The translations under genes and the position numbers were made by a program. Below, in pieces: positions 26-22,563 of a DNA stretch of 29,217 bases. Location of the stretch: IMG/VR virus record IMGVR_UViG_3300007511_001876, positions 1 to 29,217 of that record. One strand, written 5' to 3'. Every line of letters begins with the position of its first letter. Position 1 is the first letter of the stretch. The DNA comes from a virus. Under the pieces are notes generated by a model, which did not search any database, was not told the DNA's origin, and was given only the letters and a program-made list of their open reading frames with translations.

Positions 26-1027
26 TTAGGTATCACCTAATTCTTTCATAAACTCTTCCACACTCATAATCTCTTCATCCTCTTCAGGAACTTTCGGAGG
101 ATCGGGATTAAAGGGTGGCTCCTCTACTTTAGGAGTTTCGGCTTTTGGGGTTTCGGCTTTTGGGGTTTCAACAGTAGTCGCTGTTTCTACTGCTGCGGCT
201 GCTGTTTCAACGGCAGCACTACGAACACCACCACTACCATCGTGACCGTATTCTCTCGGATCAAACTCACTGTCATCACCTGCCACTATTCCCAAGTGCT
301 TCTTCAATTCCAGCCTTAATTCTTCAGGCTCTTTGAGGTTTCTCAACTCTGCGAGAACGTGAGCATTCGCCAGAAGTGTTTCAACTTCATCTGGTTCAGC
401 CAAAGGAGAAGGATCATCGAAATAAGATTCATCATAATTCGGGAACTTCTGACTTCCAGATTTGACAAGTTTCTTAACCACGATAAAATCGCGGCCTTCC
501 TTGCCGGTAGTATCAAAGATATTACCCAAGGCTTTAATGGCGGCAATGTTTTTGTCACCAACACAAGCCTTCAAAACTTTCTGCTGCACTTTCTTGCCAC
601 ATGAGTAGATTTTAACACCAACTTGGCTGGGGTCGCCTCTAACAACAGCATTGTAATAGAATCTCTCTACCGGCTTAATGTCTCTTGCCAATGCAATGTA
701 TTCATCAGCTTTTTGACCCGTGGTTTGATTAGCTTCATTCCACAGCCAGTTGTAATAATCACAAATAGGACAAACACCAACTTTGCCTTGCCAACGTCCA
801 TTGGTGAGTTCTTTACGGCAATGGAAGCTCTTTCCATTAACTCTGTGAACGCGGGTGGCTTGCCAGGGCAGACTCAGGCCGTGAGTCGGCGGTAGAAATC
901 TAAGAGTGACACTGCCCTCTTCTTTTGGCATCTGCACGAATTTAGCGAGAAATTCATTTTGTTGTGCATTGTTGTTGTCAGTTAAAATACGATCTGCTTC
1001 TTGTTTTAGTTCATTTAAAAAGTCCAC
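26..1027 (-). CDS. 32: gp32-type single-stranded DNA-binding protein
   Basis: This 333-residue protein matches the T4 gp32 family, which coats single-stranded DNA during replication, recombination and repair and recruits partners through an acidic tail. Seen here: a zinc-binding knuckle (H69, C70, then C86-P-I-C89), aromatic and basic residues through the core expected of the OB-fold, a low-complexity Ala/Thr/Pro/Lys linker at about 270-310, and a strongly acidic C-terminus (EEDEEIMSVEEF) like the gp32 partner-binding tail. The start is GTG at 1027, with AGAGGAA a few bases upstream. The linker contains a pentapeptide repeat (E-T-P-K-A) made by a 15-base tandem repeat. It is the last gene of a minus-strand series and is preceded by a 104-base leader with a hairpin. 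The family assignment is firm; details of autoregulation are inference. Confidence 0.9.
   Translation of the reverse strand: MDFLNELKQEADRILTDNNNAQQNEFLAKFVQMPKEEGSVTLRFLPPTHGLSLPWQATRVHRVNGKSFHCRKELTNGRWQGKVGVCPICDYYNWLWNEANQTTGQKADEYIALARDIKPVERFYYNAVVRGDPSQVGVKIYSCGKKVQQKVLKACVGDKNIAAIKALGNIFDTTGKEGRDFIVVKKLVKSGSQKFPNYDESYFDDPSPLAEPDEVETLLANAHVLAELRNLKEPEELRLELKKHLGIVAGDDSEFDPREYGHDGSGGVRSAAVETAAAAVETATTVETPKAETPKAETPKVEEPPFNPDPPKVPEEDEEIMSVEEFMKELGDT
135..170. repeat. 15-base tandem repeat in the gp32 linker
   Basis: The unit gtttcggcttttggg occurs twice in tandem (135-149 and 150-164) and begins a third time. On the minus strand it encodes a Thr-Pro-Lys-Ala-Glu repeat in the flexible linker between the gp32 core and its acidic tail. 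The repeat is likely to vary in copy number between relatives by slippage. Confidence 0.85.
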
Positions 1028-3359: not shown

Positions 3360-5633
3360 TCATAAATTTTCTATAACGCGATCAATAACATCACTCCAAC
3401 TCTCATCCTTGCCCTGCCTGAATAACGTCACATTCTCATACCAAGGTTGATTTACTCCCCACCCCCATCTCCAGTCGCACTTATAAGGAATCAAAGCAAA
3501 AACCCGTTTGCCCATTGCACCAGCAAGATGCAAAACCGCAGTATCAACAGTGATTATTACATCCAAAGCAGAAATTAAAGAGGCGGTGTCTGCAAACCCC
3601 TCCTCAATCAGGTCCATCATATCATTCATCTTCATCACTTTCACATCAGCGTGATCGTTGTGCTTTTTCTGAAGACTCCACAACTGATCGTCCTTTGCCG
3701 CTACAACCGTGCTTAATTTGTAAAACTGAGATAAAGGTATAGACCTTTTTGCATTTTCTGGATGCAACTTACTGCCCTGCCAACACAATCCTATTTGCTT
3801 GCCTTTACATTCCTTTAAAACCCAAGGGTGTTTTTTACTAACGATGTATGGCTTGTTGGAAATGTCGAAATGCTGCAAAAGGTGAGGTATACTTAAAATC
3901 GGCAAATGATAATCATAAGCCATACCTTCATGTACGCCCTTCATAACAACCTCATCCACAGCCTCACACCAAGACATCAAAGTAACCAACTCTGGATCGC
4001 AGCATACGCAAATTTCAGCCCCCAACTCCTTGAGTTTAGGCAAATATCTAGCATACTGAATTGTGTCTCCAACCCCCTGCTCTCCATAAACCACAACCTT
4101 TTTGCCATCTAAACTGGCTTTTCCATCCCACAGCTTGTCAGAATCAAAAGATTCTAAATACCGCCTCATTTGTTCATAATTATAGAGGCGATGCTCCAAA
4201 TGCTCATACCCTTCCTTCCACTGACCTTGAAGTAAAAAGGCGTAAGCTAAATTAACATGGGCACCATGCAGATTGGGGTTAAGAGCGATTGCTGTTTCTA
4301 AATATTCTTGCGCACCTTGAAGATCCCTTTTTTCAGTCAAACAAGATGCTAAATTGACCATTACATGTGGGTCGGGCATCTTATTTAATGCTTGCCTAAA
4401 AAGAGCTTCTGCACGGTCTATGTTCCCAATTCCCTTGTAATACTGTAAACCTAAGTTGTTTATAAAGCTAGGGTTATCAGAATCAATCTCCACCGCCGCA
4501 TGAGCGTGTTTCAAAGCTCGATCATGCTCACCATTTTGTTGATAACAAAGAGCTAAATTACTATGACAAGCTGCATCGTCCTCAATTTCAAGACCTTTTT
4601 TGAAGGATTCAATAGCTTCATTTGTTTTGCCTAAATTACCTTGAACTATTCCCAAAACACAATAAAGATCCACAGGGACAGGCACATTTACCTTCAGGGC
4701 TTGCAACAAAATAAGCTCAGCCTCTTCGTTTTTACCCTGTTTCATCATCTCTGAAGCTGTCCGCACAGCCTTGTGAATCAACGCATCAGTTGCAATGCTA
4801 GATGCATCTTTTTTTGGGATTTCTTCATCATCAACAGGTTTTAATTCGACAGTTCGCCCAAATATCTCCCTACACAAATCATGGACTTCTTCATCAAAAT
4901 AACTTCTGAATTCTGCGTCTTTCTCAAACAACTTCCACCTGCTGTCTAGGTGCATTTTAGAAGGGATAGTGTTCTCAAAACTGCTTCCACGACTGAATTT
5001 CCACCCATCCCTAGAGCCAAAACCCTCATCTGTGAAGTCCCAACCAGCCTTTTCAGAAACCTCTTTGCGATATTCCTCCTCAGCAAACCACTTGTTGAAA
5101 TTCACCTTCACAACATTGCATTTATCCGACCTCAAATAATCGGTTTCCCCCAGGAATTCCCTGGCATATTGCTTCCAAAAATAAATACCGGCTTCTGGGT
5201 CATTACATCTCAAATGAGCTAAATCTTCCGGGTTTTCCGGCTTTTCCCCTATACCTCTTACGATTGCTAACCTACTGGCAATCATATTAAAAGGGTCTCT
5301 AAGCAACAAAACTCTAGGCATAGACCTACGAAGATGCCGCTCAACATACTGTAAATTATGATCCTCAAATATCACTAATCTCCATATTGGATTGGCAATC
5401 ACATCATCGGTGGGGGAATTATCTCCTGCGCTATCGTGATGGCCCACGACAAAATCTATATGATCTCGGAGAACATTCATTGTGCCATCAGGCAAAAGCT
5501 GAACATTATTGTAAATTGCCCTATCAAAAACAAAGTGACTGAGCATCCAATCAGCCACCCCATGTATCCCGCTTCTGCGAATACCAAACAATTGAATGTC
5601 TGACCGCCTCATATTAAAATTAATTCGTTCCAT
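3360..5633 (-). CDS. Sulfotransferase-like / TPR / glycosyltransferase fusion protein
   Basis: This 757-residue protein appears to join three modules. Residues 1-260 resemble a sulfotransferase: GIRRSGIHG (17-25) fits the 5'-phosphosulfate loop, and LLLRDPFNMIASR (109-121) fits the 3'-phosphate-binding strand and helix. Residues about 285-490 are tetratricopeptide repeats, with typical segments such as NEAIESFKKGLEIE. Residues about 510-757 resemble the glycosyltransferase domain found after TPRs in many bacterial proteins (GEQGVGDTIQYARY at 517-530; a late ITVDTAVLHLAGAMG segment typical of GT-B/heptosyltransferase-like folds). The ATG at 5633 has GGAAG upstream. The N-terminal module is clearly related to the product of the minus gene 28204-28884, sharing the GIxRSGxH loop, a GSSF/GSTF segment and the C-terminal W-(K/E)-L region. 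A role in making a sulfated glycan, or in modifying phage or host surface, is inferred. The protein could instead use the TPRs to bind a protein acceptor. Confidence 0.75.
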   Translation of the reverse strand: MERINFNMRRSDIQLFGIRRSGIHGVADWMLSHFVFDRAIYNNVQLLPDGTMNVLRDHIDFVVGHHDSAGDNSPTDDVIANPIWRLVIFEDHNLQYVERHLRRSMPRVLLLRDPFNMIASRLAIVRGIGEKPENPEDLAHLRCNDPEAGIYFWKQYAREFLGETDYLRSDKCNVVKVNFNKWFAEEEYRKEVSEKAGWDFTDEGFGSRDGWKFSRGSSFENTIPSKMHLDSRWKLFEKDAEFRSYFDEEVHDLCREIFGRTVELKPVDDEEIPKKDASSIATDALIHKAVRTASEMMKQGKNEEAELILLQALKVNVPVPVDLYCVLGIVQGNLGKTNEAIESFKKGLEIEDDAACHSNLALCYQQNGEHDRALKHAHAAVEIDSDNPSFINNLGLQYYKGIGNIDRAEALFRQALNKMPDPHVMVNLASCLTEKRDLQGAQEYLETAIALNPNLHGAHVNLAYAFLLQGQWKEGYEHLEHRLYNYEQMRRYLESFDSDKLWDGKASLDGKKVVVYGEQGVGDTIQYARYLPKLKELGAEICVCCDPELVTLMSWCEAVDEVVMKGVHEGMAYDYHLPILSIPHLLQHFDISNKPYIVSKKHPWVLKECKGKQIGLCWQGSKLHPENAKRSIPLSQFYKLSTVVAAKDDQLWSLQKKHNDHADVKVMKMNDMMDLIEEGFADTASLISALDVIITVDTAVLHLAGAMGKRVFALIPYKCDWRWGWGVNQPWYENVTLFRQGKDESWSDVIDRVIENL

Positions 5634-7329: not shown

Positions 7330-7812
7330 TTATGTAGTGCCACCTTCTATTAAATTTTGCACTCTTTTATCCGCGTCCCCAGACTGCCTAATATCGAAAC
7401 CTAATTTGTCCATTTCCTTTCGGAGCATGTGTCCAAACGACTGCGCATTGTCATGGTTTCTGTCCCACGCCCGCAGGTGAGACTTCAATAATTCGACCGC
7501 CCTTGTGGCTGCTATCACCCTCTTTGAAGCGGCCACAACCTCTTCATCGGTGGATACATGGGCTTCCACCAAAGGGATGGGTCCACTCACGGTTTCTTTA
7601 TAATGAACAAACTTTCGAGCCTCAATCTCGTCAAATCTGTTTTTCAATAACATTAATTGAGCTTGTGCCTCAACCAACATCTGTCCAAAATAATTGTATT
7701 TCGCAGCTTCCACTTGCATATATTCGCTGAGAGTCGCCTCATTGAACTCTAACGCCGCAGGATCTAAAACAACATCTTGTCCCGCAATTTTAACAGTAAC
7801 AGGTTCATTCAT
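7330..7812 (-). CDS. UvsY-like recombination mediator (putative)
   Basis: This 160-residue, cysteine-free, mostly helical protein has the layout of T4 UvsY, which loads the UvsX recombinase onto gp32-coated DNA. Matching features are a leading helix with Leu/Tyr/Ala spacing, a long Ala/Gln/Lys helix ending near K-F-V-H-Y-K-E, then a conserved-looking S-T-D-E-E-V helix and a final helix ending in a short basic segment. The length is close to UvsY (137 residues in T4, longer in cyanophages). The ATG at 7812 was preferred to 7818 because AGGAG is directly adjacent to 7818 and correctly spaced from 7812. It overlaps the helicase stop by eight bases. In T4 uvsY is also a recombination gene linked to replication functions. 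The match is by pattern, not by strong identity, so it is tentative. Confidence 0.5.
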   Translation of the reverse strand: MNEPVTVKIAGQDVVLDPAALEFNEATLSEYMQVEAAKYNYFGQMLVEAQAQLMLLKNRFDEIEARKFVHYKETVSGPIPLVEAHVSTDEEVVAASKRVIAATRAVELLKSHLRAWDRNHDNAQSFGHMLRKEMDKLGFDIRQSGDADKRVQNLIEGGTT

Positions 7813-9346
7813 TTTCATCTCCTGTGTGGTTGTTGGGATCGTTATCGTTATCGTCTTTCTTCTTCTTATCTTTTTTGCCTCTGTCCAGTCCGGTTAGGTC
7901 ATCAAACCTTTCGGCTGTCCTAGTGGCGGCTGAGTCTACCGATGTACTGAGCTTAGTTCTGTAAAGTTCGTGACTAATCTCACCCATAGCTAGTGTTCTC
8001 GGATTAAACCCTATGTAAAAAGGAACCCGACTTTTTCCATTCCTAGACTTAACTATGAAACCTCTCGCTATATCAGCATTCTTCTCTTGAGTGGTCTGGT
8101 TAATTGACCACAACATATCAAGCGGACGAGTCTGCCCGTATGCATCAGCTAAATTATCATCATCAATATAACTGTTGAGAGCATCTTCGCCCTTCTCAAG
8201 TTCTCTAGCTGCACGATTAGGCTGCATAGCTGTAAGCCCTAAAAAATTATCTTCGGTTGCCCAACCTCGTAAATCTCTAACGATACGAAATCTTGACTCA
8301 TAGGTTTTAATACCAGGGGCATCTTTCATTTCCCCAACATAATCTATAATGACAACATCAGGAATAAAACCCATCATATTCAATCGAGCGTGATATGATC
8401 TAAAAGTATTTATATCAGCACTTCCAGCAGGAAAATGCTGAATGATCAACTGCCTGGGGTCATCCAACTCCTTAGCGTGATCTTTGAGAGAAACGATGAC
8501 CAGATTTTTATTATCATACAATGTGGAAATACTCTCACCAGAAAGTTGCGCATCAAACCTTTCTGCCACCTTCTCCCTGTTCATCTCACAAGATAAATAA
8601 GCAACTTTGTGTCCAAGTCCCATGTTCTTAATGGCACCAGCTACCAAAGCCAAAGACTTACCTGTTCCAGGCAAACCCATCACCGAAATAACTTCTCCTC
8701 TGCTTGGAGTTCCACCAGTAAGTGTGTTATCTATAAATTCTATTCCTGTAGACAACTTCTCTTTATCTGCCATCATTTCTTCCATCAAAGCATACCTTTC
8801 TTCAATTTGCCCAAAATAATCTAATCCCATATCATAAGTTCTATCAACCGTGATCGCCTCTTTGTAAAATTCTTCAATCTTCGTCCAATGTTCATCTGAC
8901 TCAAAATCTTTACTTAGAAGCTCGAAGGACTTCTGAAATGCTTGTCTGAGTGCTTGTGTTTTAGCGAACTTGAGGATTTTATTTTGAACAGCATCCCTGG
9001 CGTCCAACCCTGGAACATAATACTCGTAAAGAGCATCTAGTTCCCCTAATGTCTTGATAATACGAGTGGAATCTTGAATTCTGTCTCGTACTGCTTGTCG
9101 CATTATAAATGTAGCAGGCAATTTTTTATGCTCATCATAATAATCCACAATGATCCTAGCCAATGTGCGATGAACGTCATCTGTGAAGAAAGTTGGTCTA
9201 ATTAAATCCACACTTTCCATCAAAAATTGTCTGTCTGAAACCATCAAGGCTAAAATATACCTTTGATAGTCAACTTCCATGTTGTATCTGGTGTTCTCTA
9301 ACGACTCGGAATCTCTCAACCGAGCAATAATTTCACTGTTATCCAT
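7805..9346 (-). CDS. 41: Replicative DNA helicase (DnaB / gp41 family)
   Basis: This 513-residue protein is a hexameric helicase of the DnaB/gp41 type, which unwinds DNA ahead of the fork and works with primase. Residues 1-150 form the helical N-terminal domain. The RecA-like ATPase domain follows, with Walker A GLPGTGKS (224-231), a catalytic-glutamate region after LSCEMN (251-256) and Walker B VVIIDY (331-336). A Q-P-N-R motif near 378 fits the sensor region (H3/Q loop) of the family. The C-terminus ends in a very acidic/basic tail (KKDKKKKDDNDND), perhaps for partner contacts. The ATG at 9346 has GGGAGG upstream and lies inside the end of the Nudix gene (ATGGATAA), so translation is coupled. 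The length is slightly greater than T4 gp41 (475). Confidence 0.9.
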   Translation of the reverse strand: MDNSEIIARLRDSESLENTRYNMEVDYQRYILALMVSDRQFLMESVDLIRPTFFTDDVHRTLARIIVDYYDEHKKLPATFIMRQAVRDRIQDSTRIIKTLGELDALYEYYVPGLDARDAVQNKILKFAKTQALRQAFQKSFELLSKDFESDEHWTKIEEFYKEAITVDRTYDMGLDYFGQIEERYALMEEMMADKEKLSTGIEFIDNTLTGGTPSRGEVISVMGLPGTGKSLALVAGAIKNMGLGHKVAYLSCEMNREKVAERFDAQLSGESISTLYDNKNLVIVSLKDHAKELDDPRQLIIQHFPAGSADINTFRSYHARLNMMGFIPDVVIIDYVGEMKDAPGIKTYESRFRIVRDLRGWATEDNFLGLTAMQPNRAARELEKGEDALNSYIDDDNLADAYGQTRPLDMLWSINQTTQEKNADIARGFIVKSRNGKSRVPFYIGFNPRTLAMGEISHELYRTKLSTSVDSAATRTAERFDDLTGLDRGKKDKKKKDDNDNDPNNHTGDENE

Positions 9347-9851
9347 TCATTACCTCCCAAAATTTCATTGGGACTGTTATAGTGAAAGTGTGATTTTTTT
9401 CTTCCCATTTTGGGGCTTGATCTTCTATCGTCCAACCCTTAATCCCATACTGCATAAGGGGTATGATTACTTTTAAATTTGGCATTAAAAGTTTGTTCTC
9501 CCGTATATCCCAACCATTAGTCCAATGTGAAACTTCCGTTTCGCCTTCTGCCGGTTTTATCGGACCTCTTATGGTAATCGCCTTAACACAGTAGACCCTT
9601 GCCGTGTGACCCTGTATTGTGCCCATAACCTCAACCCTGCTTGCCTCAATAGGTCGCAACCCCGTTTCTTCTCTCAACTCCCTTATGGCAGCGTTCTCAG
9701 GCGTTTCTCCCGGCTCAATTCGTCCACCGGGTAAATTCAAATGACCAGCTTGCCATTCAGGACGATCTTTCAAAGTAAGAACAAATTGAGGCGGCGCACC
9801 ATCATTGAAATGCTTCATTGCCTCAGCATAAACAATCACGTATTCAACCAT
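9339..9851 (-). CDS. Nudix hydrolase
   Basis: This 170-residue protein carries a complete Nudix box at residues 43-65: G43, E49, then R57-E58-L59-R60-E61-E62 and G64. This is the metal-binding catalytic motif of enzymes that hydrolyse nucleoside diphosphates linked to another group. The sheet before it (YVIVYAEAM, then PQFVLTLKDR) and the strand after it fit the family. A C-terminal extension of about 60 residues contains several Trp residues. The start is ATG at 9851, with GGAGG upstream and overlapping the small gene before it by eight bases; an in-frame TTG at 9875 was rejected. T4 has a Nudix protein (NudE) of similar size. The place in a replication operon suggests cleaning of the nucleotide pool or a nucleotide cofactor, but the substrate is unknown. 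Confidence 0.88.
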   Translation of the reverse strand: MVEYVIVYAEAMKHFNDGAPPQFVLTLKDRPEWQAGHLNLPGGRIEPGETPENAAIRELREETGLRPIEASRVEVMGTIQGHTARVYCVKAITIRGPIKPAEGETEVSHWTNGWDIRENKLLMPNLKVIIPLMQYGIKGWTIEDQAPKWEEKNHTFTITVPMKFWEVMNG

Positions 9852-10020
9852 CCTTACGTTTCTCCTCCAAATCAAGAATTACAATTCCATGCCCTGAGAC
9901 CATATGGTGATTTTCTAAATCGCTCCAATAACCAGGAGCGGGCTTCTTTTCAGAATGGAAAACCACATTGTCTGTCATTGGCCTGTCTAAAAGAAGTTGG
10001 ATCAATTCTTTGACTTTCAT
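9844..10020 (-). CDS. 58-residue small protein, first gene of the replication operon
   Basis: A short gene: ATG at 10020, stop TGA at 9844, with GGAG seven bases before the start and a good promoter just upstream. Its stop overlaps the Nudix ATG by eight bases (AAGGATGGTTGA), a sign of translational coupling. The product begins MKVKELIQLLLDRPMTDNVV, which is the pattern of a family of small phage and bacterial proteins of unknown function that start with (M/T)-V-K-E-L-I-x-x-L and are followed by a short beta-rich part (HGIVILDLEE here). No biochemical role is known to me. Confidence 0.75.
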   Translation of the reverse strand: MKVKELIQLLLDRPMTDNVVFHSEKKPAPGYWSDLENHHMVSGHGIVILDLEEKRKDG

Positions 10021-10765: not shown

Positions 10766-11326
10766 TCAGTTAGTCACCAGATAATCGAACTCACTCAGAG
10801 AAACTTGACCTGAGCGTATCGTCTTCTCTCTAGTAATTTTCTTTCCTATTGTTTTTTGACAATTCCACGCAATGGCTTTGCAGTAGGTTGCAAACGTAGA
10901 ATCTATCTGCAATGGGGCTTGTTTAGAGGGTCTTCGTGAAGAAGGAACCACTGTCTTTACGATCTTGTCCAAAAGTTGCTCTTGGAAAGGACCGAACTTC
11001 TGCCGGTTGGCTCCGTGACGCTTCCTGTTCTTCCATAAATTATCAAGCTCCCCTAAGACAAATCTAATAAATCTATCCTTAGCGAACTTGTCGCAAATCT
11101 CCAAACAGTTCTCGATATAAACCTGTCGTTTGTGATATGTCCCTGCGATCAACAGGTGCATTCTCAATTCTTGCACAACATCATCAAAATCATTGGTGTG
11201 GTTGTTTTTCGTATTCTTCTTCAAAAGTTGCCACGCTTGAAAATTACATAAATCTCCGAACTTCTCATCAAGCAAGGCATATTCTTCTGGCGTTACTTCA
11301 AAAGGGTTTTTTCCCTTCATTTTCAT
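10766..11326 (-). CDS. Possible sigma-like transcription factor
   Basis: This 186-residue protein is basic and helical. Its segment N-D-F-D-D-V-V-Q-E-L-R-M-H-L-L (about 46-60) resembles sigma-70 region 2.1/2.2, where the pattern D-(L/I)-x-Q-E is common, and a Tyr/Trp/Arg-rich part follows (ELDNLWKNRKRHGANRQKFG, about 91-110) where the promoter-melting region would be. Its length is nearly that of the T4 late sigma factor gp55 (185 residues), but direct similarity is not obvious to me. The start is the ATG at 11326, seven bases after AGGAG; an upstream TTG at 11344 was rejected. It lies immediately behind the polymerase gene and before a strong terminator. The presence of a T4 late promoter in this window means that such a factor must be encoded somewhere in the genome. 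An alternative is a DNA-binding protein of unrelated type. Confidence 0.35.
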   Translation of the reverse strand: MKMKGKNPFEVTPEEYALLDEKFGDLCNFQAWQLLKKNTKNNHTNDFDDVVQELRMHLLIAGTYHKRQVYIENCLEICDKFAKDRFIRFVLGELDNLWKNRKRHGANRQKFGPFQEQLLDKIVKTVVPSSRRPSKQAPLQIDSTFATYCKAIAWNCQKTIGKKITREKTIRSGQVSLSEFDYLVTN

Positions 11327-11336
11327 ATTCAATCTC

Positions 11337-12593
11337 CTATTCAAAATTCAAATTAGGACCGATTTTACAAGCAACCTTCAATTTAAGTCCTGGTAACATT
11401 TCACTTGGAGATTCTAAAGTTTCAATCGCCTTACGTGTAAAGTAATTTGTTTGTTGTATTGGTGTGTAAAGACAGTAGCCGTCATGTAAATGAAATCCAA
11501 TGTCAGTATCGGTGTTGTCTAACATTCTTTTTAGGGCAATTAGTTTCTCAAAGCATAGTGTCGCTGCGGGCGACTGGACTACAAAATTCCTAATTTTGTG
11601 GTATTGATCAAAATCTCTTGTTCGACCCAAATAATCACTTGTCACTCTGCCATCTTGTTGTTTCTGCACATAGGACAGCGCAGACGGAAACAACGTATGT
11701 ATCTTATTTATTATGTAATCGGCAAATTCTCTCGATATTTTTTGCCTCTCAGAAAGTGTGGCCGATGCCATCCCAAACACCACAGGCAAGAAAATACTTT
11801 TGCTAAAACTTCGATGTTTGGGATTTTCGCACTCCTTCCTTGTTATTAACTTAAAGAGGGCAGCGTAAAAATCATCAGATTTATTTAATATTTCTCCCAA
11901 ATACTCGTCTTTCGACAACCATTGTAAAACTGCTACCTCCATGTTGCGAAAATCCAAATATAAAAACCTGCGATTCTCGCCCACGGCCCGAAATTTTTCC
12001 TTTTCCTCTGGCTTTAAACTGTGAGGATTATATCCATCTGAGAAATTAAGAAGGCACTTGAATCGACCGTGTTTTTGCCCTTCAATTTCGTAGTAGGCTC
12101 TCAAAGTCTTCCGAGATTCAATGTCTAAAATACCGATATTCTCAAGCTCTGGAACCACCTCTTCAATTAATGGAAGATGAATTTTATTGTAAACATCCTT
12201 CCAATTATCGTTTTCGCGTATTAATTTGATCCTTCCCATCAATTCATCGTGACTAGCTGGACAGGTTTCTCTTACGCCAAGATAAGACTCGATGACTTTC
12301 AAATCTAAAACTTTAATAGATGATTCAAACCTTCGACCTGTAATGAATAAAATGTAACTATAGAAAACCTTGGCGTTCCACCAAAAAACAGGGCCTTTGA
12401 CAATATTTTTGAGAGTAGCCAACAATACCCAAAAATCCAAATCCTTCTTCAGACTGATTTTGACCGAACCATTCCTGCCCATTACTACAAGATTCGGATC
12501 GCCACCCTCAGCCAAATCTAAAACATCGGGCGATGTGTAAAGAAAAAGAGGCGATTGCAGTTGCTCTAGTTGCAATATTAGAGAATCATCCAT
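11337..12593 (-). CDS. Family A DNA polymerase, short form with degenerate exonuclease region
   Basis: This 418-residue protein has the polymerase motifs of the Pol I/T7 family. Motif A is LDFRNMEVAVL (213-223, D214). Motif B shows the family spacing R261, K265, L269, F273-G274. N336 to A344 fits the conserved N-x-x-x-Q-x-x-A-A helix, and motif C is H370-D371-G372, with glycine where most have glutamate. The N-terminal 200 residues are short; WWNAKVFYSYI (71-81) and VLDLKVIESYL (95-105) look like remnants of the proofreading exonuclease (usual N-A-x-F-D and D-T-x-x-A-x-Y-L), but the aspartate after the N-A-K is replaced. It is much shorter than T7 polymerase (704). The ATG at 12593 has no ribosome site and lies seven bases beyond a TATAAT. 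T4 itself uses a family B polymerase. Confidence 0.78.
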   Translation of the reverse strand: MDDSLILQLEQLQSPLFLYTSPDVLDLAEGGDPNLVVMGRNGSVKISLKKDLDFWVLLATLKNIVKGPVFWWNAKVFYSYILFITGRRFESSIKVLDLKVIESYLGVRETCPASHDELMGRIKLIRENDNWKDVYNKIHLPLIEEVVPELENIGILDIESRKTLRAYYEIEGQKHGRFKCLLNFSDGYNPHSLKPEEKEKFRAVGENRRFLYLDFRNMEVAVLQWLSKDEYLGEILNKSDDFYAALFKLITRKECENPKHRSFSKSIFLPVVFGMASATLSERQKISREFADYIINKIHTLFPSALSYVQKQQDGRVTSDYLGRTRDFDQYHKIRNFVVQSPAATLCFEKLIALKRMLDNTDTDIGFHLHDGYCLYTPIQQTNYFTRKAIETLESPSEMLPGLKLKVACKIGPNLNFE

Positions 12594-13301: not shown

Positions 13302-14264
13302 ATGAAAAAATGCACATTCATGTCTGGTCAGGTAACACTGAATTTTCAGCTAAATGATATAGGCCCATGTTGCACAAATCACTCTAATGAAATCTCTCTT
13401 GCCTTGACAAATGAAATTTCCAGCTATAATGGTGATTACAGTAAATTAGTTGATGATATTGTAGCAAATCGTCAAAAAGTAGCAACTTGGCAACAAGAAC
13501 CAAAGAATCCATGTGATGGATGTAAATACTGGAAAGAAGACGAAAAAGTAGGTGATCACGTATTTGCAAATCCGATACAGCGCCTCATTATAAACAATTA
13601 CAGGACTTGCAATCTAAAATGTGTTTATTGCCCTAGAGTAGACTTAAAAAGACCCCCAGGTTATGAAGTCTATCCAATTTTAAAAGCTATGATCCAGAAA
13701 CCTGGATTTTTTGCTCCTGAACAAACTTGGCTCACATGGGCGGGAGGAGAACCGTCTCTATATCCAAAAGATGATATGAGAAGAAGTGTAGACTTAGCGA
13801 TGGGGGCAAGAATGCTTGTCAGATTCAACACTAATGCAGTGTCGTATTCCTCGCTAATCGCTGAGACATTGGCAGATTATGAAGATGCTGTTATAATATG
13901 CAGCCTCGATTCCGGCAATAAAGAAAACTATGCAAAGATCAAAGGCGCAGATAGATTTGATAAAGTTTTAGAAAACTTGAAAAGGTATCATAATATCTGC
14001 CAGAAAAGCCAACTCCATATAAAATTTATTGAATGTGAAGAAAATTCTGACTCTGTTGAAGGTTTCTTGAAATTAATTGATGAAAACGACTTCAATATGG
14101 TTTATGTTGAGGATCGTCAAAAAGGAATCAGAGTAGGTGAAAAACGAAAGCAACGGGAAGAGAACCTAAGAAAACGGCGAGAGAATCTTAAACGGAGAGA
14201 GGAGCTTAAGAAGAAAAAAGATGGACAGGCTTTACCAAATTCTCGAATACAACATGACTCATGA
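13302..14264 (+). CDS. Radical SAM protein with charged C-terminal tail
   Basis: This 320-residue protein has the radical SAM iron-sulfur motif C103-x3-C107-x2-C110 (TCNLKCVYC) and the GGEP SAM-binding motif (148-151), followed by strand/helix units of the partial TIM barrel up to about residue 265. Extra cysteines upstream (C23-C24 and C71-x2-C74 in PCDGCKYW) could bind a second cluster or zinc, an unusual place since auxiliary clusters of the SPASM type are C-terminal. The last 45 residues are a highly charged Lys/Arg/Glu helix (KRKQREENLRKRRENLKRRE). The ATG at 13302 follows AAGGAAA. The gene end overlaps the next by 44 bases. Such enzymes modify peptides, nucleic acids or sugars by radical chemistry; the target here is not known. 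Confidence 0.85.
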   Translation: MKKCTFMSGQVTLNFQLNDIGPCCTNHSNEISLALTNEISSYNGDYSKLVDDIVANRQKVATWQQEPKNPCDGCKYWKEDEKVGDHVFANPIQRLIINNYRTCNLKCVYCPRVDLKRPPGYEVYPILKAMIQKPGFFAPEQTWLTWAGGEPSLYPKDDMRRSVDLAMGARMLVRFNTNAVSYSSLIAETLADYEDAVIICSLDSGNKENYAKIKGADRFDKVLENLKRYHNICQKSQLHIKFIECEENSDSVEGFLKLIDENDFNMVYVEDRQKGIRVGEKRKQREENLRKRRENLKRREELKKKKDGQALPNSRIQHDS

Positions 14265-14916
14265 TCAGGCGTTAGCTTTTAAAATCGCCCTTATATGGGA
14301 GGAATTAACGCCTCGATATTTTCCGAAAGAGAATTGTGGTAAATTAACTAAAAGAGGCGACCCTCGTGACTGCAACCTGTTCAGATATTGTCTTAAACTG
14401 GTCACGGAAACACGGGGATTAATTCCCATAGACCAATATCGTTATTACATCCGTGCTCAGTTTGACATTTTAAAAAGCATAAAAAATTCGCGCGGCGAGC
14501 ACGCCAACATCACACCACTTTGTCTGACTGGTAAAAAAGCATGGATCAGATGGAAAATGTGGTTGCGGAAGTTCAAAAACTCTCAAAAATCGGGAACAAT
14601 AGAGCCGGATATATTGCAGTCCAAAGTGGTAGATAAAATCAAGAAGACCAAAGGGTTCTTATTTAAACAATATAAAGGTGCGCCAACCCAGGATGATATA
14701 TGTAAAGCCATCGACAATAGGACTATGATAAGATGGGTAACACTGGGAAAGGTGTGCGGATACTATATGGTGTTGTCACCGTATGTGGCTAAATGCCTTA
14801 ACATGGAAGAATTTGAAGAGAGGTATTATTTCGACTTAGCAATTTACAAATCCCACCTTACTCCTGAGAGTGTGGATTTGTTTAATGAGGAATTCAGCCA
14901 TGAATTTGAACATTAA
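14221..14916 (+). CDS. Unknown basic phage protein
   Basis: This 231-residue protein is not recognised. It is basic and helical with many aromatic residues (for example DQYRYYIRAQFDIL and KKAWIRWKMWLRKF), which would suit nucleic acid binding. The start is ATG at 14221, preceded by a purine-rich stretch (AAGAAGAAAAAAG) and overlapping the radical SAM gene by 44 bases; an ATG at 14254 is an alternative that would reduce the overlap to 11 bases. The T4 helicase loader gp59 (217 residues) was considered because of size and basic helical nature, but no motif supports it. It is followed by a small membrane protein gene that overlaps its end. Confidence 0.6.
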   Translation: MDRLYQILEYNMTHDQALAFKIALIWEELTPRYFPKENCGKLTKRGDPRDCNLFRYCLKLVTETRGLIPIDQYRYYIRAQFDILKSIKNSRGEHANITPLCLTGKKAWIRWKMWLRKFKNSQKSGTIEPDILQSKVVDKIKKTKGFLFKQYKGAPTQDDICKAIDNRTMIRWVTLGKVCGYYMVLSPYVAKCLNMEEFEERYYFDLAIYKSHLTPESVDLFNEEFSHEFEH

Positions 14917-16678: not shown

Positions 16679-17779
16679 ATGAGCATTTTAGAATTTAAAG
16701 CGTTTTTAGAAGAATACGATTTTTCCGAAGTTTTTGACATGAAACATAAGGTTGATGGTCATTGGATTCAAAAGCCAAATGCCCATTCTTTTGTGTTTAG
16801 CCTACCGGGGGAGGATCAGTGTTACGGTCCAGGTGGACAACAACCATGTTGGTCTGCGGATTTTGCTGGAAATCCTGAATCAGCAGTAGAGGTTTCCTTT
16901 GCCCACGCTACAACAAAGTATGATGATAGAGATATGGGCCGTGCAAATGCAACCATAATTGGCACAGCAGTAATTCAAGCTCTTCAAGAATATATTACCA
17001 AATTTAATCCGGCCATGTTGCATTGGGGGGCAGCACAAAAGACTAGAGAAAAAACAGCAGATACCACAAATAACGACAAAGCACGACAAAAAATTTATGC
17101 TCTGTGGTTTAAGAAAAACATGTTTCCATCCAGATATGTGCCTATTCCAAAAATAGCTGAAACTGATTTTGATGATTCATCAATGGACAGCAACCCTCAA
17201 ATGTGGGTGAGAAGAGATTTATACGATTCTAATTATGTCCCTAAAGGTTATCCACAAGTGCCGCAAGGAAACGGTTCTCGTGTTTATAAGCAATTCATAG
17301 ATAGTTTGCATAGCAATGTGAATAATCTCAATCAACAAGCGCAAAATGCACGCCAACAGCAGGCCGCACAACAACAGGCCGCAGCAGAACAGGCGATTGG
17401 AGATCCTAGATATAATCCTCAACGCCTTGGTAACTGGGAAACAGTGATGGATATGAACCCAGCAGCGTCAGGAGGCATGATGTATCAATCTACTTATGGT
17501 CACATTGGAAAAATTACAGGATTCAGCATGAGTAATGATGGCCAATTGATGGCTCATGTTTCGTGGGAACAAGACAAAGAGGGAAATCCCGCAGATAGTA
17601 ATAGTTTATCCCCGACTGTTCCAGTTAGTCACCTTAAGCGTGTTAATAAAAACAAGCAAGTTAGACGGGCTAGAAACATAATGCAACAACAGGCTCAACA
17701 GCCACAACAAGCTGCTCCTGCGCCTGCCGCACCGGCACAATCTTGGCCGGATGGAGCACAGCCCTTGGGAGTGCATTAA
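16679..17779 (+). CDS. Putative internal virion protein with capsid-targeting-like N-terminus
   Basis: This 366-residue protein begins MSILEFKAFLEEYDF, a form of the F-K-x-(W/F)-L-x-E motif shared with other proteins here. Residues about 25-175 look like a folded domain with many aromatic residues (GHWIQKPNAHSF; PAMLHWGAAQK; ALWFKKNMFPSRY). A Gln/Ala-rich linker follows (about 218-240), then a second small domain with the pattern of a beta-rich SH3-like fold (GHIGKITGF, LMAHVSWEQD), and a Gln/Ala/Pro-rich tail. Function unknown. The ATG lies seven bases after CATAAATA without a clear ribosome site. The last bases are shared with the stop of the convergent gene. If the N-terminal motif is a targeting signal, this is an internal head protein. 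Confidence 0.65.
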   Translation: MSILEFKAFLEEYDFSEVFDMKHKVDGHWIQKPNAHSFVFSLPGEDQCYGPGGQQPCWSADFAGNPESAVEVSFAHATTKYDDRDMGRANATIIGTAVIQALQEYITKFNPAMLHWGAAQKTREKTADTTNNDKARQKIYALWFKKNMFPSRYVPIPKIAETDFDDSSMDSNPQMWVRRDLYDSNYVPKGYPQVPQGNGSRVYKQFIDSLHSNVNNLNQQAQNARQQQAAQQQAAAEQAIGDPRYNPQRLGNWETVMDMNPAASGGMMYQSTYGHIGKITGFSMSNDGQLMAHVSWEQDKEGNPADSNSLSPTVPVSHLKRVNKNKQVRRARNIMQQQAQQPQQAAPAPAAPAQSWPDGAQPLGVH

Positions 17780-18558
17780 TACCATTTCATATTTGTGGCG
17801 ATTGCCTCAGCTATTTCATCTCCCGTTTGTGTTGGAAAGAAGTTCCAGTCCATATCGCTGGGCATGATTCCCCAATCAACACTACGCCCACAATGATTTT
17901 CTATGTTCGTATTTATTAATCGGATCACTCCGGTTTTATGGTCATAACTTATATCTGTGAGATTTTCCAAAACGCGCTGTTGGTCTTGCGTTTCTACTCC
18001 ATGACCTCGCAACTCCATCTTGATGATATAATTAGAGTCGGATATTTTTTTGATGCCCTCAAATATGAAGATGTCTTTTGCTGTTCGCCTCATTTTATTT
18101 GCCATATTGACAACAAGGTTTTCCAGCATTTGTTCATCGAACCCTTCTTTTTTAGGACTGTCTAAGGGTTGTTTGTCAATTAACTCTACGAATTCAAAAA
18201 GTTCTTGGGCTACTTTTTCTTCATGCCCACCATAGCCAGCACGGTTGATTTGGAAGAATTTTTTCATTGCCCAAACAGGCTTGTGTTCTAGGCTTATGCC
18301 TAATCTTTCGATACCCATTTGCAGGCCGGTTCCTGTCCAAATCCTGATGGCACCAACTCCTTCTCCCCATTGGATTTGATCCATGAATTGCAAGTGTGCT
18401 CTCTTGCCCGGCAACTTCAATTCATACAGGTGCTCCATCATTTTTTCTAGATCGAATCGGTTGACAGGAGTATCAGATTCTTCTTTTTTATTATCTTTGT
18501 TAATATCCTTCTCGAACCCGAAAATATCAACACCTTCAAACCATGTCTTAAATTCCAT
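17776..18558 (-). CDS. Putative internal virion protein with capsid-targeting-like N-terminus
   Basis: This 260-residue protein begins MEFKTWFEGVDIFGFE, with the F-K-x-W-(L/F)-E motif followed by a glycine, which matches the T4 head-protease cleavage pattern (x-E|G). A charged linker (KDINKDNKKEESD) separates it from a mixed alpha/beta domain from about residue 35 to the end, rich in Trp and Met. No catalytic motif was recognised. The ATG at 18558 has GGGTGA upstream, and a TATATATA-containing divergent region lies a further 30 bases back. Its stop (TAA) overlaps the TAA of the convergent gene within a single TTAA. Its role is unknown beyond the suggested packaging. Confidence 0.62.
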   Translation of the reverse strand: MEFKTWFEGVDIFGFEKDINKDNKKEESDTPVNRFDLEKMMEHLYELKLPGKRAHLQFMDQIQWGEGVGAIRIWTGTGLQMGIERLGISLEHKPVWAMKKFFQINRAGYGGHEEKVAQELFEFVELIDKQPLDSPKKEGFDEQMLENLVVNMANKMRRTAKDIFIFEGIKKISDSNYIIKMELRGHGVETQDQQRVLENLTDISYDHKTGVIRLINTNIENHCGRSVDWGIMPSDMDWNFFPTQTGDEIAEAIATNMKWY

Positions 18559-18590
18559 ATTTCACCCAAAATTTAAATGTCTGACTCAAT

Positions 18591-18598
18591 TATATATA
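18591..18598. promoter_or_regulatory. Palindromic TATATATA between divergent genes
   Basis: TATATATA lies between the genes at 18558 (minus) and 18607 (plus). It reads the same on both strands and is a one-mismatch match to the late consensus, so it could be a shared bidirectional -10 element. On the plus side it ends eight bases before the ATG at 18607. Confidence 0.35.
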
Positions 18599-18606
18599 GA
18601 GGTATG

Positions 18607-19023
18607 ATGAAAACGTTTCGAGTATGGTTAGAAGAAAAGGATGATGGCGACATTCAAGCCACAATCCTAGATCGGCTAGGTTTAGACAAAAACACTGGCT
18701 TGGGGACTTCGTTGGGTCATTTTGACCACGACAGCAATGGTGAACCATTTGTTTTGCGACAGCTTCAAGATTTGGGATTTTGGAAATCACTTCCCCCAGA
18801 AAAGACGGCTGAAGCAAGAAATATGATAATGAGTGGTGACAAAACTGTTGGTGAATTAATTCAATCATTAAACAGCAGCGTTGATCCTACTGAAAAAGTA
18901 GGTGTTTCCCCACCTGAAGGTGAAGAGCCAAAGAAAGAGAAGCCACCTGAACCTCAGTCACAACCATCTCAGGCACCCGTACCTCCTCAAGGTGGTCAAC
19001 AACAATTGCCCGCCCCCATGTAG
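18607..19023 (+). CDS. Putative internal virion protein with capsid-targeting-like N-terminus
   Basis: This 138-residue protein begins MKTFRVWLEEKDDG, with the shared F-x-x-W-L-E-E motif. Its start M-K-T is the same as in T4 internal proteins I and III. A small domain of about 80 residues follows (DILDRLG-like helices, GHFDHDSNGEPF), then a Pro/Gln/Glu-rich disordered tail (about 95-138). The ATG at 18607 was chosen from two adjacent ATGs because of AGAGG upstream; an in-frame ATG at 18577 would add ten residues and place the motif internally. Its stop is eight bases before the phosphatase gene, with which it forms an operon. Confidence 0.65.
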   Translation: MKTFRVWLEEKDDGDIQATILDRLGLDKNTGLGTSLGHFDHDSNGEPFVLRQLQDLGFWKSLPPEKTAEARNMIMSGDKTVGELIQSLNSSVDPTEKVGVSPPEGEEPKKEKPPEPQSQPSQAPVPPQGGQQQLPAPM

Positions 19024-19031: not shown

Positions 19032-19673
19032 ATGGAACTGATCTTAATTAGACATGGCGAGAGTCACTTTAATACTAAAGATACTCACGACTTAGATAGT
19101 CCCTTGACACAAAGAGGACGGCAACAGTGTTTCTCTTGCGGTGCGTTCTTGCGCCGAAAATTCGATAACATGAGAGACTGGAAAGGTTTAGCTAGTCCCT
19201 TTATGAGAACTCTCCAGACTGCTGATATTTTAAATCGTTATACTGAATGTGGTTTTGAAATAGAATGGCAAGCGAGAGAATTTGCTCACATTTCTAGTGG
19301 GTATAGCGGAGAAACCATATTAAAACTGCCATGTCACAAGAAAAAGTTTCCCGATTTTTACCCCGAAAATCTTCCTGATAATTATGTTTTCACTCAAAGG
19401 ATGGAGACTAATGAGGATTTAATTGATCGAGTTAGTGAGTTTGTAACAGAATTACGGGATGAAGATGGAAAGTATATAGTGGTGTCCCACGGTCAGATGA
19501 TATACACCATGATCTATGTGCTGAATGGGTCTTATTGTGTTCCCATGTGGGATAAAAAGGTTTTAAATACCAGTGTTACATATTTTCAAGATGACAACAT
19601 GGTTTATTTCGCAAGATATGTGAACGGAGGAAAAGACCCCCGTAAAGAATCTTGGGAATATGTTATGCTTTAA
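19032..19673 (+). CDS. Histidine phosphatase family protein (phosphoglycerate mutase-like)
   Basis: This 213-residue protein belongs to the histidine phosphatase superfamily. It has the catalytic L-I-R-H-G-E motif (residues 5-10, H8 phosphorylated in the family), the typical D-S-P-L-T-x-x-G-R-x-Q segment (22-32), S-P-F-x-R-T-x-Q-T-A (second arginine region, 55-64) and the second catalytic histidine in VVSHG. Family members dephosphorylate small molecules, sugars or proteins. The ATG at 19032 has GGGAGA upstream. It follows the motif-bearing gene by eight bases but has no FKEWL-like N-terminus itself. Its TAA overlaps the stop of the convergent kinase gene within TTAA. Pairing opposite a kinase-like gene is notable but may be coincidence. 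The substrate is unknown. Confidence 0.85.
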   Translation: MELILIRHGESHFNTKDTHDLDSPLTQRGRQQCFSCGAFLRRKFDNMRDWKGLASPFMRTLQTADILNRYTECGFEIEWQAREFAHISSGYSGETILKLPCHKKKFPDFYPENLPDNYVFTQRMETNEDLIDRVSEFVTELRDEDGKYIVVSHGQMIYTMIYVLNGSYCVPMWDKKVLNTSVTYFQDDNMVYFARYVNGGKDPRKESWEYVML

Positions 19674-20233
19674 ATATAACCACCTTCATATTTATCATCT
19701 TTTAGAAAATCTTCAATTTTTGGGTCATTGTGCCAATTCTGCAACATAGGAAGAATTGCTTCGGGAGGAATCCCATGTTGGTTCAATCCTGATAATTCAG
19801 CAGCCGCAGCCTTCATCTTCTCAGGGTCTTTAAAATACAGCATCTTTTTGATTTTTTCCCATTGAGGGCTTTGCGGTTCCACGAATCTTATTTCGTATTT
19901 ATGTTGCAGACCCAAATCAACATAAGGCTTCATAGCCCATTTAGTTATGTTGGTGTTATCTACCACAATAGGTGAAATCCCTTGCTGCATAGCCTTCATA
20001 ACTCTGTCTTGGTTGAGTTGGTGATAAAATGGCATTAATTCCAATTTCCTAGCTCTCGTCATTTGGGACGTATACTCTTCTTTATCTTTGGAAAAGTAAT
20101 CATCTGTGGAGAATGTGGCTCCACCGTCTTTAATGAGTCTCATTACGGTGCTAGATTTGCCCGTGCCGGAAGGCCCACGCATGATGTAAAGCATCTTTCC
20201 TTCTGATTCTGTCAACCAATGTTTGAAACTCAT
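19670..20233 (-). CDS. P-loop polynucleotide-kinase-like ATPase with capsid-targeting-like N-terminus
   Basis: This 187-residue protein is a P-loop kinase of the AAA_33 / N4BP2-like group that includes polynucleotide kinase domains. Walker A is GPSGTGKS (20-27), S-T-D44-D45 fits the catalytic acid site after the second strand, and I-V-V-D-N-T-N (89-95) is the hallmark segment of the N4BP2-like kinases. The helical C-terminal third contains an R-F-V-E-P strand. The N-terminus, MSFKHWLTESEGK, is the FKEWL-type motif followed by S-E-G, and is separate from the kinase domain, which begins at about residue 14. The start at 20233 lacks a ribosome site; TATATATG stands two bases upstream. It may end-phosphorylate nucleic acid or another hydroxyl; the motif suggests it may be packaged in the head. 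Confidence 0.8.
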   Translation of the reverse strand: MSFKHWLTESEGKMLYIMRGPSGTGKSSTVMRLIKDGGATFSTDDYFSKDKEEYTSQMTRARKLELMPFYHQLNQDRVMKAMQQGISPIVVDNTNITKWAMKPYVDLGLQHKYEIRFVEPQSPQWEKIKKMLYFKDPEKMKAAAAELSGLNQHGIPPEAILPMLQNWHNDPKIEDFLKDDKYEGGYI

Positions 20234-20398: not shown

Positions 20399-20618
20399 TG
20401 CCAGCACCAGTGTTGTAAACGCCATAACAGCTATGGCTAAATCAATGAGTGGAGTTTTTGGTAAATACAGCCGTCAAACCAGAACGAAGGCTTGGAAGAG
20501 ACTCTCCAGTGCCAAAGGCGATAAAGAAATGGCCAAATTAGCTCTGAACCCTAAACGACCCCTAAGTAATTTTAGAAAGTTGCAGTTTAAAGAATGGTTG
20601 AATTCACAAGATGGCTAG
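20376..20618 (+). CDS. 80-residue basic protein ending in a capsid-targeting-like motif
   Basis: This protein starts with GTG at 20376, seven bases after AGGTGG, and is very basic (about one quarter Lys and Arg) with small helices, which suits DNA binding or head filling. Unlike the others it carries the motif at its C-terminus: K-L-Q-F-K-E-W-L-N-S-Q-D-G, just before the stop. The bases that encode this motif are also used, in another frame, to begin the next gene, whose own N-terminus again has F-x-x-W-L. This may be a C-terminal targeting signal, or a sign that gene boundaries have moved. The function of the body is unknown. Confidence 0.6.
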   Translation: MRKKTKNDASTSVVNAITAMAKSMSGVFGKYSRQTRTKAWKRLSSAKGDKEMAKLALNPKRPLSNFRKLQFKEWLNSQDG

Positions 20619-21106
20619 AAATGAGAGATAGACTCTTTCAATATTTGCAATCTCTAGTTCCTAATTGGCCTCCTTATGTGGTTAAGGATTGGATTTATCA
20701 GGCCCATAAAGGAAAAGATGAATTCTACCGTCGCGATCCAAATCAAGCTGCTGAGTTTTTACAATATGTTGCCACAAATAGCGGGTATTCCGATCCGAAA
20801 CAAATACAATGGCAATTACAGGTTTTGCCAATGAGAATGGATTTGTTTGATAAAAACACAAGAGCACAATTAGAATCCAGAGTGGGAGGTCAATCACACA
20901 ACGCATACAACAGCGATCAAAGACATGCTACACAAGCCAACATGGTTGCCAATGCCCCTTCACAAGAACCTGTTATTATGGCTATAACCCCAAGTGGGTA
21001 TTGTTTGATAGAAGGCTGGCATAGAACAGTAGAATCATTAAAAAATTGGCCACAAGGGTATAATCAAAAAGCGTGGACTTATAAATCTCTTAAAGATTTA
21101 ACCTAA
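20594..21106 (+). CDS. ParB/sulfiredoxin-like protein with capsid-targeting-like N-terminus (putative)
   Basis: This 170-residue protein begins MVEFTRWLEMRDRLF, a variant of the shared motif. A helical domain with several Trp and Gln residues follows (about 15-90). Near the C-terminus, E-P-V-I-M-A-I-T then L-I-E-G-W-H-R-T-V-E (about residues 124-147) resembles the ParB/sulfiredoxin fold, where a conserved (G/E)-G-x-H-R motif binds nucleotide. Only this part is recognisable, so the enzymatic state is uncertain. The ATG at 20594 lies inside the upstream gene and has no good ribosome site. The gene ends nine bases into the UvsW-like gene on the other strand. Confidence 0.45.
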   Translation: MVEFTRWLEMRDRLFQYLQSLVPNWPPYVVKDWIYQAHKGKDEFYRRDPNQAAEFLQYVATNSGYSDPKQIQWQLQVLPMRMDLFDKNTRAQLESRVGGQSHNAYNSDQRHATQANMVANAPSQEPVIMAITPSGYCLIEGWHRTVESLKNWPQGYNQKAWTYKSLKDLT

Positions 21107-22528
21107 ATCTATTTCTTCTCGTATTGCCACTGGATGACCTTCTTTACTTAGAATTTTCACTCTGGTCTCAGCATGATCTCTTAAATATCCGTTGATGTTA
21201 AAAAAGAAGTCGTAATACTTAAGAACATCTTTATCACCTGCCGTCCTCAAACCACGCCCCATTCTTTGAATCACACTGCTTTTGCCTTTGCCACCTGCTG
21301 CATTGATTAAATTGTGAATCTTGACATTTAAGCCCTTGGAAATAATCTTCTGACTGACTATGGCAATTACGTTTTCCGAGCTTTTTAATTTATCAATGAC
21401 CTCTTTTCGATCATCAACCTTGTCCTTGCCTTGAATCCAATGAGCACCTGGAATCATAGCCGCCAATGCATCTCCCTGTTTTAGCCTTTCAACTAAAACT
21501 AAGGTTCGCCCCTTGCATTTGGTGGCTACGGTTTTAACCATATCGTGCAAGTGGGGATTTTCAGCTATACCTGCTGTAACTGCATCTTGGAATATTTCAT
21601 AAGGCAACTGGGGTTGATTGACTTCAAAAAACACACATTCTGAACCTGATAGGATGCCTCGCTCTTGAAGCTCCGCAGTAGTTAATTCACCCGATTCTGT
21701 AGCTGAAGTCCTGAATATAGATCCAAAGTAACCCTTGACCTTATATTTTTCTTCTTGATTATCGTATGGAGTAGCACTGATAGCAATGCGAACTGGGGTG
21801 TTTTTTAATTTCCTGTATACTGAAATAGGAACATCACTCATACAGGCATGAATTTCGTCTACCAATACAGCTCGTATTTTTGGGAATATCTTTTCTAATT
21901 TTCTAACTGATTGAGTTGTAGAACAGGTGATTACATTAGGTTCTTTCTTCTTGCCATGAAGCACTCCTACATTCGGTATCCCCGCCTTGATAAGTTCATC
22001 TCGGTTTTGCTCTGTTAAATCTATGGTATCGGTAAGAACCAGGGTTGGAGTGTTAGGCGGGAGTGCCCTCATAATACCAGCGAATACAAAGGTCTTACCA
22101 GCAGCCGTTGGAGCTTTCACTATGCCCCTTTTATACTTAGCTGCGGCATTAATTAGATCCACTTGATAGTCGTATAATTCAATGTCCCCACCATCATCTG
22201 CTAAACTGTGATCCCATTGATTTAAAAATAGGCTATCCACTTCCTTGTGGTGGAAATCAAAAACCTTTCTTTTGTCTTGTATTTCGTATCTGACTTTGAA
22301 TTTGTGCTTCAAAGCAAAGAATACTTCAGGAAGCAAACCTGTTAGAAATCGACCTGTTTTAGGACTGAAGAAATTAACATATCCATCCCACTTTCTCTGG
22401 CGATAAGCAGGCGAAAATATATAGCCTTCTCTGCGGGCACGCAAAGCCTCATGCAATATCTTCTTGATTTGCATGTCACGAGTGAGAAGCTGAGAGTAAT
22501 TATTGTTTATTGATACAACGTAATCCAT
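21098..22528 (-). CDS. uvsW: UvsW-type SF2 DNA/RNA helicase
   Basis: This 476-residue protein is an SF2 helicase. Walker A is APTAAGKT (139-146), motif II is DEIH (224-227), motif III SATP (251-254), and motif VI QRMGRGLR (421-428). An N-terminal domain of about 115 residues with an F-S-P-x-x-R-x-R-x-W-D-G segment precedes the helicase core, as in T4 UvsW (503 residues). UvsW remodels stalled forks and unwinds R-loops, and so helps the switch from origin- to recombination-dependent replication. The ATG at 22528 lacks a ribosome site; the -10 element of a sigma70-type promoter lies six bases upstream. It also overlaps the convergent ParB-like gene by nine bases. Confidence 0.87.
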   Translation of the reverse strand: MDYVVSINNNYSQLLTRDMQIKKILHEALRARREGYIFSPAYRQRKWDGYVNFFSPKTGRFLTGLLPEVFFALKHKFKVRYEIQDKRKVFDFHHKEVDSLFLNQWDHSLADDGGDIELYDYQVDLINAAAKYKRGIVKAPTAAGKTFVFAGIMRALPPNTPTLVLTDTIDLTEQNRDELIKAGIPNVGVLHGKKKEPNVITCSTTQSVRKLEKIFPKIRAVLVDEIHACMSDVPISVYRKLKNTPVRIAISATPYDNQEEKYKVKGYFGSIFRTSATESGELTTAELQERGILSGSECVFFEVNQPQLPYEIFQDAVTAGIAENPHLHDMVKTVATKCKGRTLVLVERLKQGDALAAMIPGAHWIQGKDKVDDRKEVIDKLKSSENVIAIVSQKIISKGLNVKIHNLINAAGGKGKSSVIQRMGRGLRTAGDKDVLKYYDFFFNINGYLRDHAETRVKILSKEGHPVAIREEIDLG

Positions 22529-22534: not shown

Positions 22535-22563
22535 ATTATAATGAAATTTATATCAAATTTCAA
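22535..22563 (-). promoter_or_regulatory. Sigma70-type promoter giving a leaderless uvsW transcript
   Basis: On the minus strand TTGAAA (22563-22558), exactly 17 bases, and a perfect TATAAT (22540-22535) lie in front of the uvsW ATG (22528), with only six bases between. The first transcribed base would be at the ATG. The -35 element reaches into the end of the preceding gene. Confidence 0.65.

Follow-up and report, generated by a model that had tools for sequence, protein, structure and literature searches.

The window, a viral DNA stretch of 29,217 nucleotides (IMG/VR record IMGVR_UViG_3300007511_001876, positions 1 to 29,217), encodes a 418-residue family A DNA polymerase (hereafter short PolA) that has lost both the thumb and the catalytic residues of its exonuclease domain. 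The same architecture recurs in 51 distinct aligned sequences, many of them on contigs of 150–595 kb, and in every locus the gene is accompanied by an orphan gene, which we refer to as the partner. On balance, we consider it probable that the short PolA is an accessory, non-proofreading polymerase working at the replication fork of huge phages beside a family C enzyme. Polymerases of this kind have been published as divPolA1 (Yutin et al. 2024, PMC11348598), from which the present clade appears to be distinct; the kind is hereby extended from 14 published phages (155–190 kb) to a broad clade on contigs of up to 595 kb, and a specific, testable partner can be named for it, with linkage in 51 of 51 and, reciprocally, 77 of 77 loci. 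The clade also sharpens two questions, namely how a family A polymerase works without a thumb, and how synthesis in huge phages is divided between a reduced PolA and an often-split DnaE.

Table 1 Features of the window (positions are those of the whole stretch)
Feature	Position	Strand	Evidence
gp32-like ssDNA-binding protein	26..1027	-	PF08804 E 6.5e-10, phrog_224
Conserved gene after helicase, function unassigned	7330..7818	-	44/51 loci
DnaB-like replicative helicase	7805..9346	-	phrog_19 E 2.5e-60; 50/51 loci
NUDIX hydrolase	9339..9875	-	PF00293 E 3.1e-14; 20/51 loci
Orphan partner gene, basic all-helical protein	10766..11326	-	linkage, model, sequence
Short family A DNA polymerase, 418 aa, thumb-less and exonuclease-dead	11337..12593	-	ORF, PF00476, model
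Motif C, H370 D371 G372	11478..11486	-	alignment
Motif B (O-helix), R261 to F273, Leu at KF F762	11775..11813	-	alignment
Motif A, D214 to E219	11937..11954	-	both residues 51/51
Residues 132-177, thumb base helix and hairpin, thumb proper missing	12063..12200	-	segment length, model DSSP
Residues 1-131, exonuclease-fold domain without catalytic residues	12201..12593	-	alignment, model, Foldseek
Conserved gene upstream of polymerase on opposite strand, function unassigned	14221..14916	+	46/51 loci
MxxFxxW(L/I/F) genes, first four	17776-18558, 18577-19023, 19670-20233, 20594-21106
UvsW-type helicase	21098..22528	-	phrog_16 E 2.6e-72
MxxFxxW(L/I/F) genes, other four	22560-23897, 23930-24625, 24629-25108, 28918-29175

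A family A polymerase with a conserved active site

The polymerase reading frame matches PF00476 (E 1.5e-16, residues 199–414) and, in a phmmer search against the PDB, KlenTaq (E 6.5e-7). A sequence-only reading of the window had called it a short family A polymerase with the family's motif spacing, and alignment to the Klenow fragment (KF) bears it out: R261, K265, L269, F273, H370 and D371 correspond to KF R754, K758, F762, Y766, H881 and D882, and the N336–Q340 pair also lies in the expected place. The protein has the palm and fingers homology, the two catalytic aspartates and the motif B arginine and lysine of the family. Across the 51 aligned sequences D214, E219, K265, L269 and D371 are found in all, R177 is invariant, R261 and H370 occur in 50 and Q340 in 49. 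The glycine that had been noted in place of the motif C glutamate is likewise real, with G372 at the KF E883 position, where 45 of 51 sequences have Gly and the others Ala, Ser or Cys. At the equivalent of KF F762, a point absent from that reading, all 51 sequences have Leu; both this Leu and the missing motif C Glu are therefore traits of the family. Phage polymerases with Leu762 have been associated with synthesis that is slower but more accurate and with a mostly temperate life (PMC6302109). The invariance of E219, equivalent to the KF E710 steric gate, argues for the use of dNTPs, and a reading of the protein as an RNA polymerase or primase is disfavoured for the same reason. The short PolA is probably a catalytically competent family A DNA polymerase. 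In a subclade that includes the polymerases of L002, L014 and L016, an extra O-helix residue lies between the motif B Lys and FLP.

Loss of the thumb and of the exonuclease site

The usual PF00476 thumb subdomain is missing, a deletion that the sequence-only reading had also passed over. The segment from P141 to R177 spans 36 residues in the window protein and 34–37 across the clade, against 135–253 in ordinary PolAs (136 in E. coli Pol I, 253 in T7 gp5 and 135–227 in seven other phage PolAs), and what remains of the thumb is its base helix (132–153) and a hairpin. An AlphaFold2 model built with 50 sequences (pLDDT 94.9, pTM 0.93) contains no thumb helices, and Foldseek aligns it over whole Klenow-type structures, including KlenTaq, Bst and the apicoplast polymerase (E down to 4e-19, TMq ~0.75). 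The short PolA shares the palm, the fingers and the fold of the exonuclease-type domain with the Klenow fragment, KlenTaq and Bst, whereas these enzymes keep the thumb, Phe at 762 and an HDE motif C. The exonuclease domains of Taq and Bst are also inactive.

In the model, the N-terminal domain has the beta-beta-beta-alpha-beta-alpha-beta-alpha order of the exonuclease fold, so the fold itself, which had been taken for a remnant, is confidently predicted, without its catalytic residues. T20 and P22 occupy the motif I Asp and Glu positions and F77 the motif II Asp position of the window protein, as assigned by motif and secondary-structure order, global sequence alignment being unreliable there. 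Among the 51 sequences, position 20 (KF D355) is Thr, Phe, Leu or others, position 22 (E357) mostly Pro and position 77 (D424) Leu, Phe, Ile or Val, and the stretch that bears motif III in the Klenow fragment is shortened away. The motif I–III carboxylates of proofreading PolAs of the Pol I and T7 gp5 type are gone, and the enzyme is not expected to proofread its own product, as had been supposed. Comparisons between close pairs show purifying selection on the short PolA (dN/dS 0.02–0.23), with the exonuclease-like domain constrained too, less than the polymerase part; the domain is therefore retained, presumably as structure, rather than decaying.

Relatives and the comparison with divPolA1

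A first single-sequence pattern scan found no relatives, which were found by profile searches of IMG/VR that returned 22, then 71 loci, yielding the 51 distinct sequences aligned here. Aligned relatives are 30–41% identical to the window's copy; the annotated-phage collection contains a single full-length one, from the 595-kb metagenomic phage LR756511 (35% identical), and the closest relative found is the 527-kb IMGVR_UViG_3300005613_000001, with the polymerase 45% and the partner 76% identical. As all 51 aligned relatives share the same traits, the thumb-less, exonuclease-dead architecture is old and selected, and not a product of recent decay. A scan of cellular genomes gave one match, to a Neisseriaceae MAG scaffold of 13 kb, which does not suffice to name a host.

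In divPolA1 the thumb is truncated and the three exonuclease aspartates are replaced, and the enzyme is additional to a regular polymerase and lies in a replication-gene context (Yutin et al. 2024, PMC11348598). The short PolA has the same truncated thumb, the same exonuclease-fold domain inactivated by replacement of its catalytic Asp, and a catalytic palm with fingers; the two are also alike in length (~410–450 residues) and in their SSB, RecA and DnaB neighbours, and in most relatives of the window the short PolA is likewise extra to another polymerase, DnaE. Simple identity of the two is, however, not supported by sequence: the window polymerase and the Immuto divPolA1 are 16% identical, their profile match is weak and confined to the palm (E 6.9e-5), and the short PolA profile finds the Immuto regular PolA but not the Immuto divPolA1 at E 0.1. 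The active sites differ at KF E710, R754, F762 and motif C (H/Y/F/YDA in divPolA1, E/R/L/HDG in the short PolA clade), as do the genomes, which measure 155–190 kb for the divPolA1 phages (Immutovirus and GOV bins; PMC11348598) against contigs of up to 595 kb, and no homologue of the partner gene was found near divPolA1. The main text of Yutin et al. 2024 (PMC11348598) makes no mention of the LR756 huge-phage records. A core tree joins divPolA1 and the short PolA clade (UFBoot 100) on very long branches, so either one ancient reduction or two convergent ones are possible. The divPolA2 of barbaviruses (PMC11348598) resembles the short PolA in having a palm without an ordinary thumb and, as far as most relatives of the window are concerned, in being extra to a regular polymerase. 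Its N-terminal globular domain is unrelated, however, and an exonuclease domain is lacking, whereas the short PolA retains the exonuclease-fold domain.

An orphan partner gene linked to the polymerase

The partner gene is present in all 51 polymerase loci, always downstream on the polymerase strand, at a distance of no more than 2.5 kb in 49 of them. The reciprocal search returned 80 partner loci, of which 73 have the polymerase directly upstream and four have it overlapping or up to ~3 kb away, the remaining three being cut off by the contig end; none lacks the polymerase, which is present in 77 of 77 uncut loci. In the window the listed reading frame extends to a TTG at 11344, and the likely start is the ATG at 11326; the AGGAG before it overlaps the stop codon of the polymerase. 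Conservation is higher in the partner than in the polymerase (45–64% vs. 30–41% identity to the copy in the window). The protein is basic, with a median net charge of +12, and all-helical in an AlphaFold2 model (pLDDT 85), and sequence and fold searches gave no convincing Pfam or PDB relative. A reading of the partner as a sigma factor is not supported, as Sigma70_r2 matched weakly in only 5 of 47 members (best E 0.016) and there was no PDB fold match. Gene linkage suggests that the partner functions with the polymerase, and we tentatively propose that the two might form a two-subunit family A enzyme in which the partner gives the thumb's DNA grip in trans, together with a family C polymerase, often in two pieces, in the huge-phage replisome.

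Family C polymerases and exonucleases in the relatives

We surveyed 14 records, comprising the window's 29-kb fragment and 13 relatives. No family B polymerase (PF00136, 0 of 14) and no second intact PF00476 gene was found in them, and DnaE (PF07733) is present in ten. A separate profile scan placed DnaE, among its best 80 matches, on at least 15 of the 20 polymerase- or partner-bearing contigs of ≥150 kb, among them IMGVR_UViG_3300005613_000001; in LR756511 it lies ~56 kb from the short PolA. To judge from these relatives, the window's own virus, of which the record holds only 29 kb, probably carries DnaE as well. The equivalents of D401, D403 and D555 are kept in all nine DnaE enzymes examined, and in most of these enzymes the PHP ligand motifs look complete, in contrast to the degenerate ones of E. 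coli. In M. tuberculosis the PHP-domain exonuclease of DnaE1 is described as the proofreader (PMC5636811). Five of the 14 records, LR756511 among them, also encode a separate DEDDh exonuclease (phrog_192, ‘DNA polymerase exonuclease subunit’); the complete-looking PHP sites and this gene are therefore plausible providers of proofreading besides the short PolA.

These results bear on several suggestions of the sequence-only reading. A separate exonuclease gene, one of its two explanations, exists in the five records just named, yet its model for such a gene, Rhodothermus phage RM378, is a different case: RM378 is T4-related and has exonuclease and polymerase on separate genes, but these are of family B (PF03104 E 2.6e-14, PF00136 E 2.2e-33), whereas the window gene is family A. 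The second, complete proofreading polymerase that would have told against it has largely turned up in the relatives, not as a family B enzyme but as DnaE, a family C polymerase whose PHP site looks complete. The intact exonuclease fold that would equally have told against it is there by half, predicted with confidence but stripped of catalytic residues. Its ‘T4-type’ gene set is apt for gp32 and UvsW (PF08804, phrog_224 and phrog_16) and not for the polymerases, a family B gp43 being absent from the window fragment and from the 13 relatives' records.

In many relatives (G001, G002, G004, G005, G006, G010; L085-L090, L185-L246) DnaE is split into two reading frames. The first contains the PHP domain and the first part of the palm and ends just before PDxDxD; the second lies ~3–12 kb away, on the opposite strand in G006, and has an N-terminal extension of ~85–160 residues followed by the catalytic motif. 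A dead DnaE, suggested by the apparent loss of catalytic Asp from the N-terminal pieces, was rejected because PDxDxD sits in the second frame. No intein motif was seen at the junction of the split DnaE; G001N and G005N do have intein-like inserts, at other places. A split Pol III alpha is known from other jumbo phages with a family B polymerase (Iyer et al. 2021, PMC7824862), where it is minimal, whereas the split DnaE here keeps PHP.

Gene neighbourhood and the role of the short PolA

The short PolA lies in a conserved module with DnaB, SSB and RecA genes, and in 50 of the 51 loci the DnaB-like helicase follows the partner, ~3 kb from the polymerase. From a similar context, Yutin et al. (PMC11348598) argued that divPolA1 takes part in replication. 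As an accessory polymerase, the short PolA, composed of palm, fingers and a structural, dead exonuclease-fold domain without a thumb, would work at the fork alongside the DnaB-type helicase and make short, non-proofread stretches of DNA, in primer extension or lagging-strand gap filling. The DNA grip that replaces the thumb might come from the linked partner, from SSB or from the helicase. Most DNA would be synthesised by the family C enzyme, which would also proofread by means of its PHP domain, joined in some genomes by the separate DEDDh exonuclease.

Some findings weigh against this. It is the short PolA, not DnaE, that shares the module with helicase, SSB and recombinase, and a search of the 14 records found no bacterial beta clamp (PF02768) to serve DnaE. 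With the short PolA inside the replication module and DnaE ~56 kb away in LR756511, the roles could be reversed: the short PolA would be the main replicase, processive by means of the partner and the helicase, with the family C enzyme auxiliary, in repair or on one strand only. Fidelity would then depend on nucleotide selection (Leu at KF 762) or on an exonuclease acting in trans. Yutin et al. (PMC11348598) argued from context for a replication role of divPolA1, the role of the regular polymerase being less obvious, and 5 of the 20 long contigs have no DnaE among the best 80 matches, although all five may be incomplete. A main replicase would nevertheless have to do without thumb and proofreading site, while DnaE retains the catalytic residues and, in most cases, the PHP site, and we regard this chief rival of the accessory reading as unlikely. 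Lower still we rate a repair or damage-bypass polymerase, engaged in gap filling or recombination repair and not in normal fork progress: the absence of proofreading and the nearby gp32, UvsW, RecA and HhH-glycosylase-like genes would suit one, but linkage to the replicative helicase (50 of 51 loci) is tighter than that to any repair gene (UvsW 21 of 51, HhH protein 19 of 51). We consider it very improbable that the short PolA has degenerated and lost its activity, surviving as a structural subunit, as the combined loss of thumb, exonuclease residues and motif C Glu might suggest, given the conservation of the catalytic Asp, Lys, Arg and Gln and the steric-gate Glu in essentially all 51 sequences, the low dN/dS, and the example of T7 RNA polymerase, which has HDS and does not need the third motif C carboxylate.

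Other genes in the window and its relatives

Upstream of the polymerase, the window encodes a radical SAM protein (13302-14264, PF04055 E 8.6e-12) that is near the polymerase in 0 of 51 relatives. Positions 3360-5633 encode a large protein that combines TPR repeats with a C-terminus resembling glycosyltransferase family 9, and no homologue was found near the polymerase in the relatives. A second, highly diverged PolA-like protein of 387 residues with an IHDS motif and without a Pfam match is encoded in L002 (18826-19989); in LR756511 its gene and that of the polymerase overlap, in five other loci it is found upstream of the polymerase gene, and the protein has relatives in 634–735-kb phages. 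Finally, 8 of the 38 window genes, encoding otherwise unrelated proteins, share an N-terminal MxxFxxW(L/I/F) motif (0.16 expected from shuffles, maximum 2), which is also found on LR756511 genes. T4 internal head proteins carry a capsid-targeting sequence, and by analogy the motif is possibly such a sequence for internal head proteins, which we offer as a lead only.
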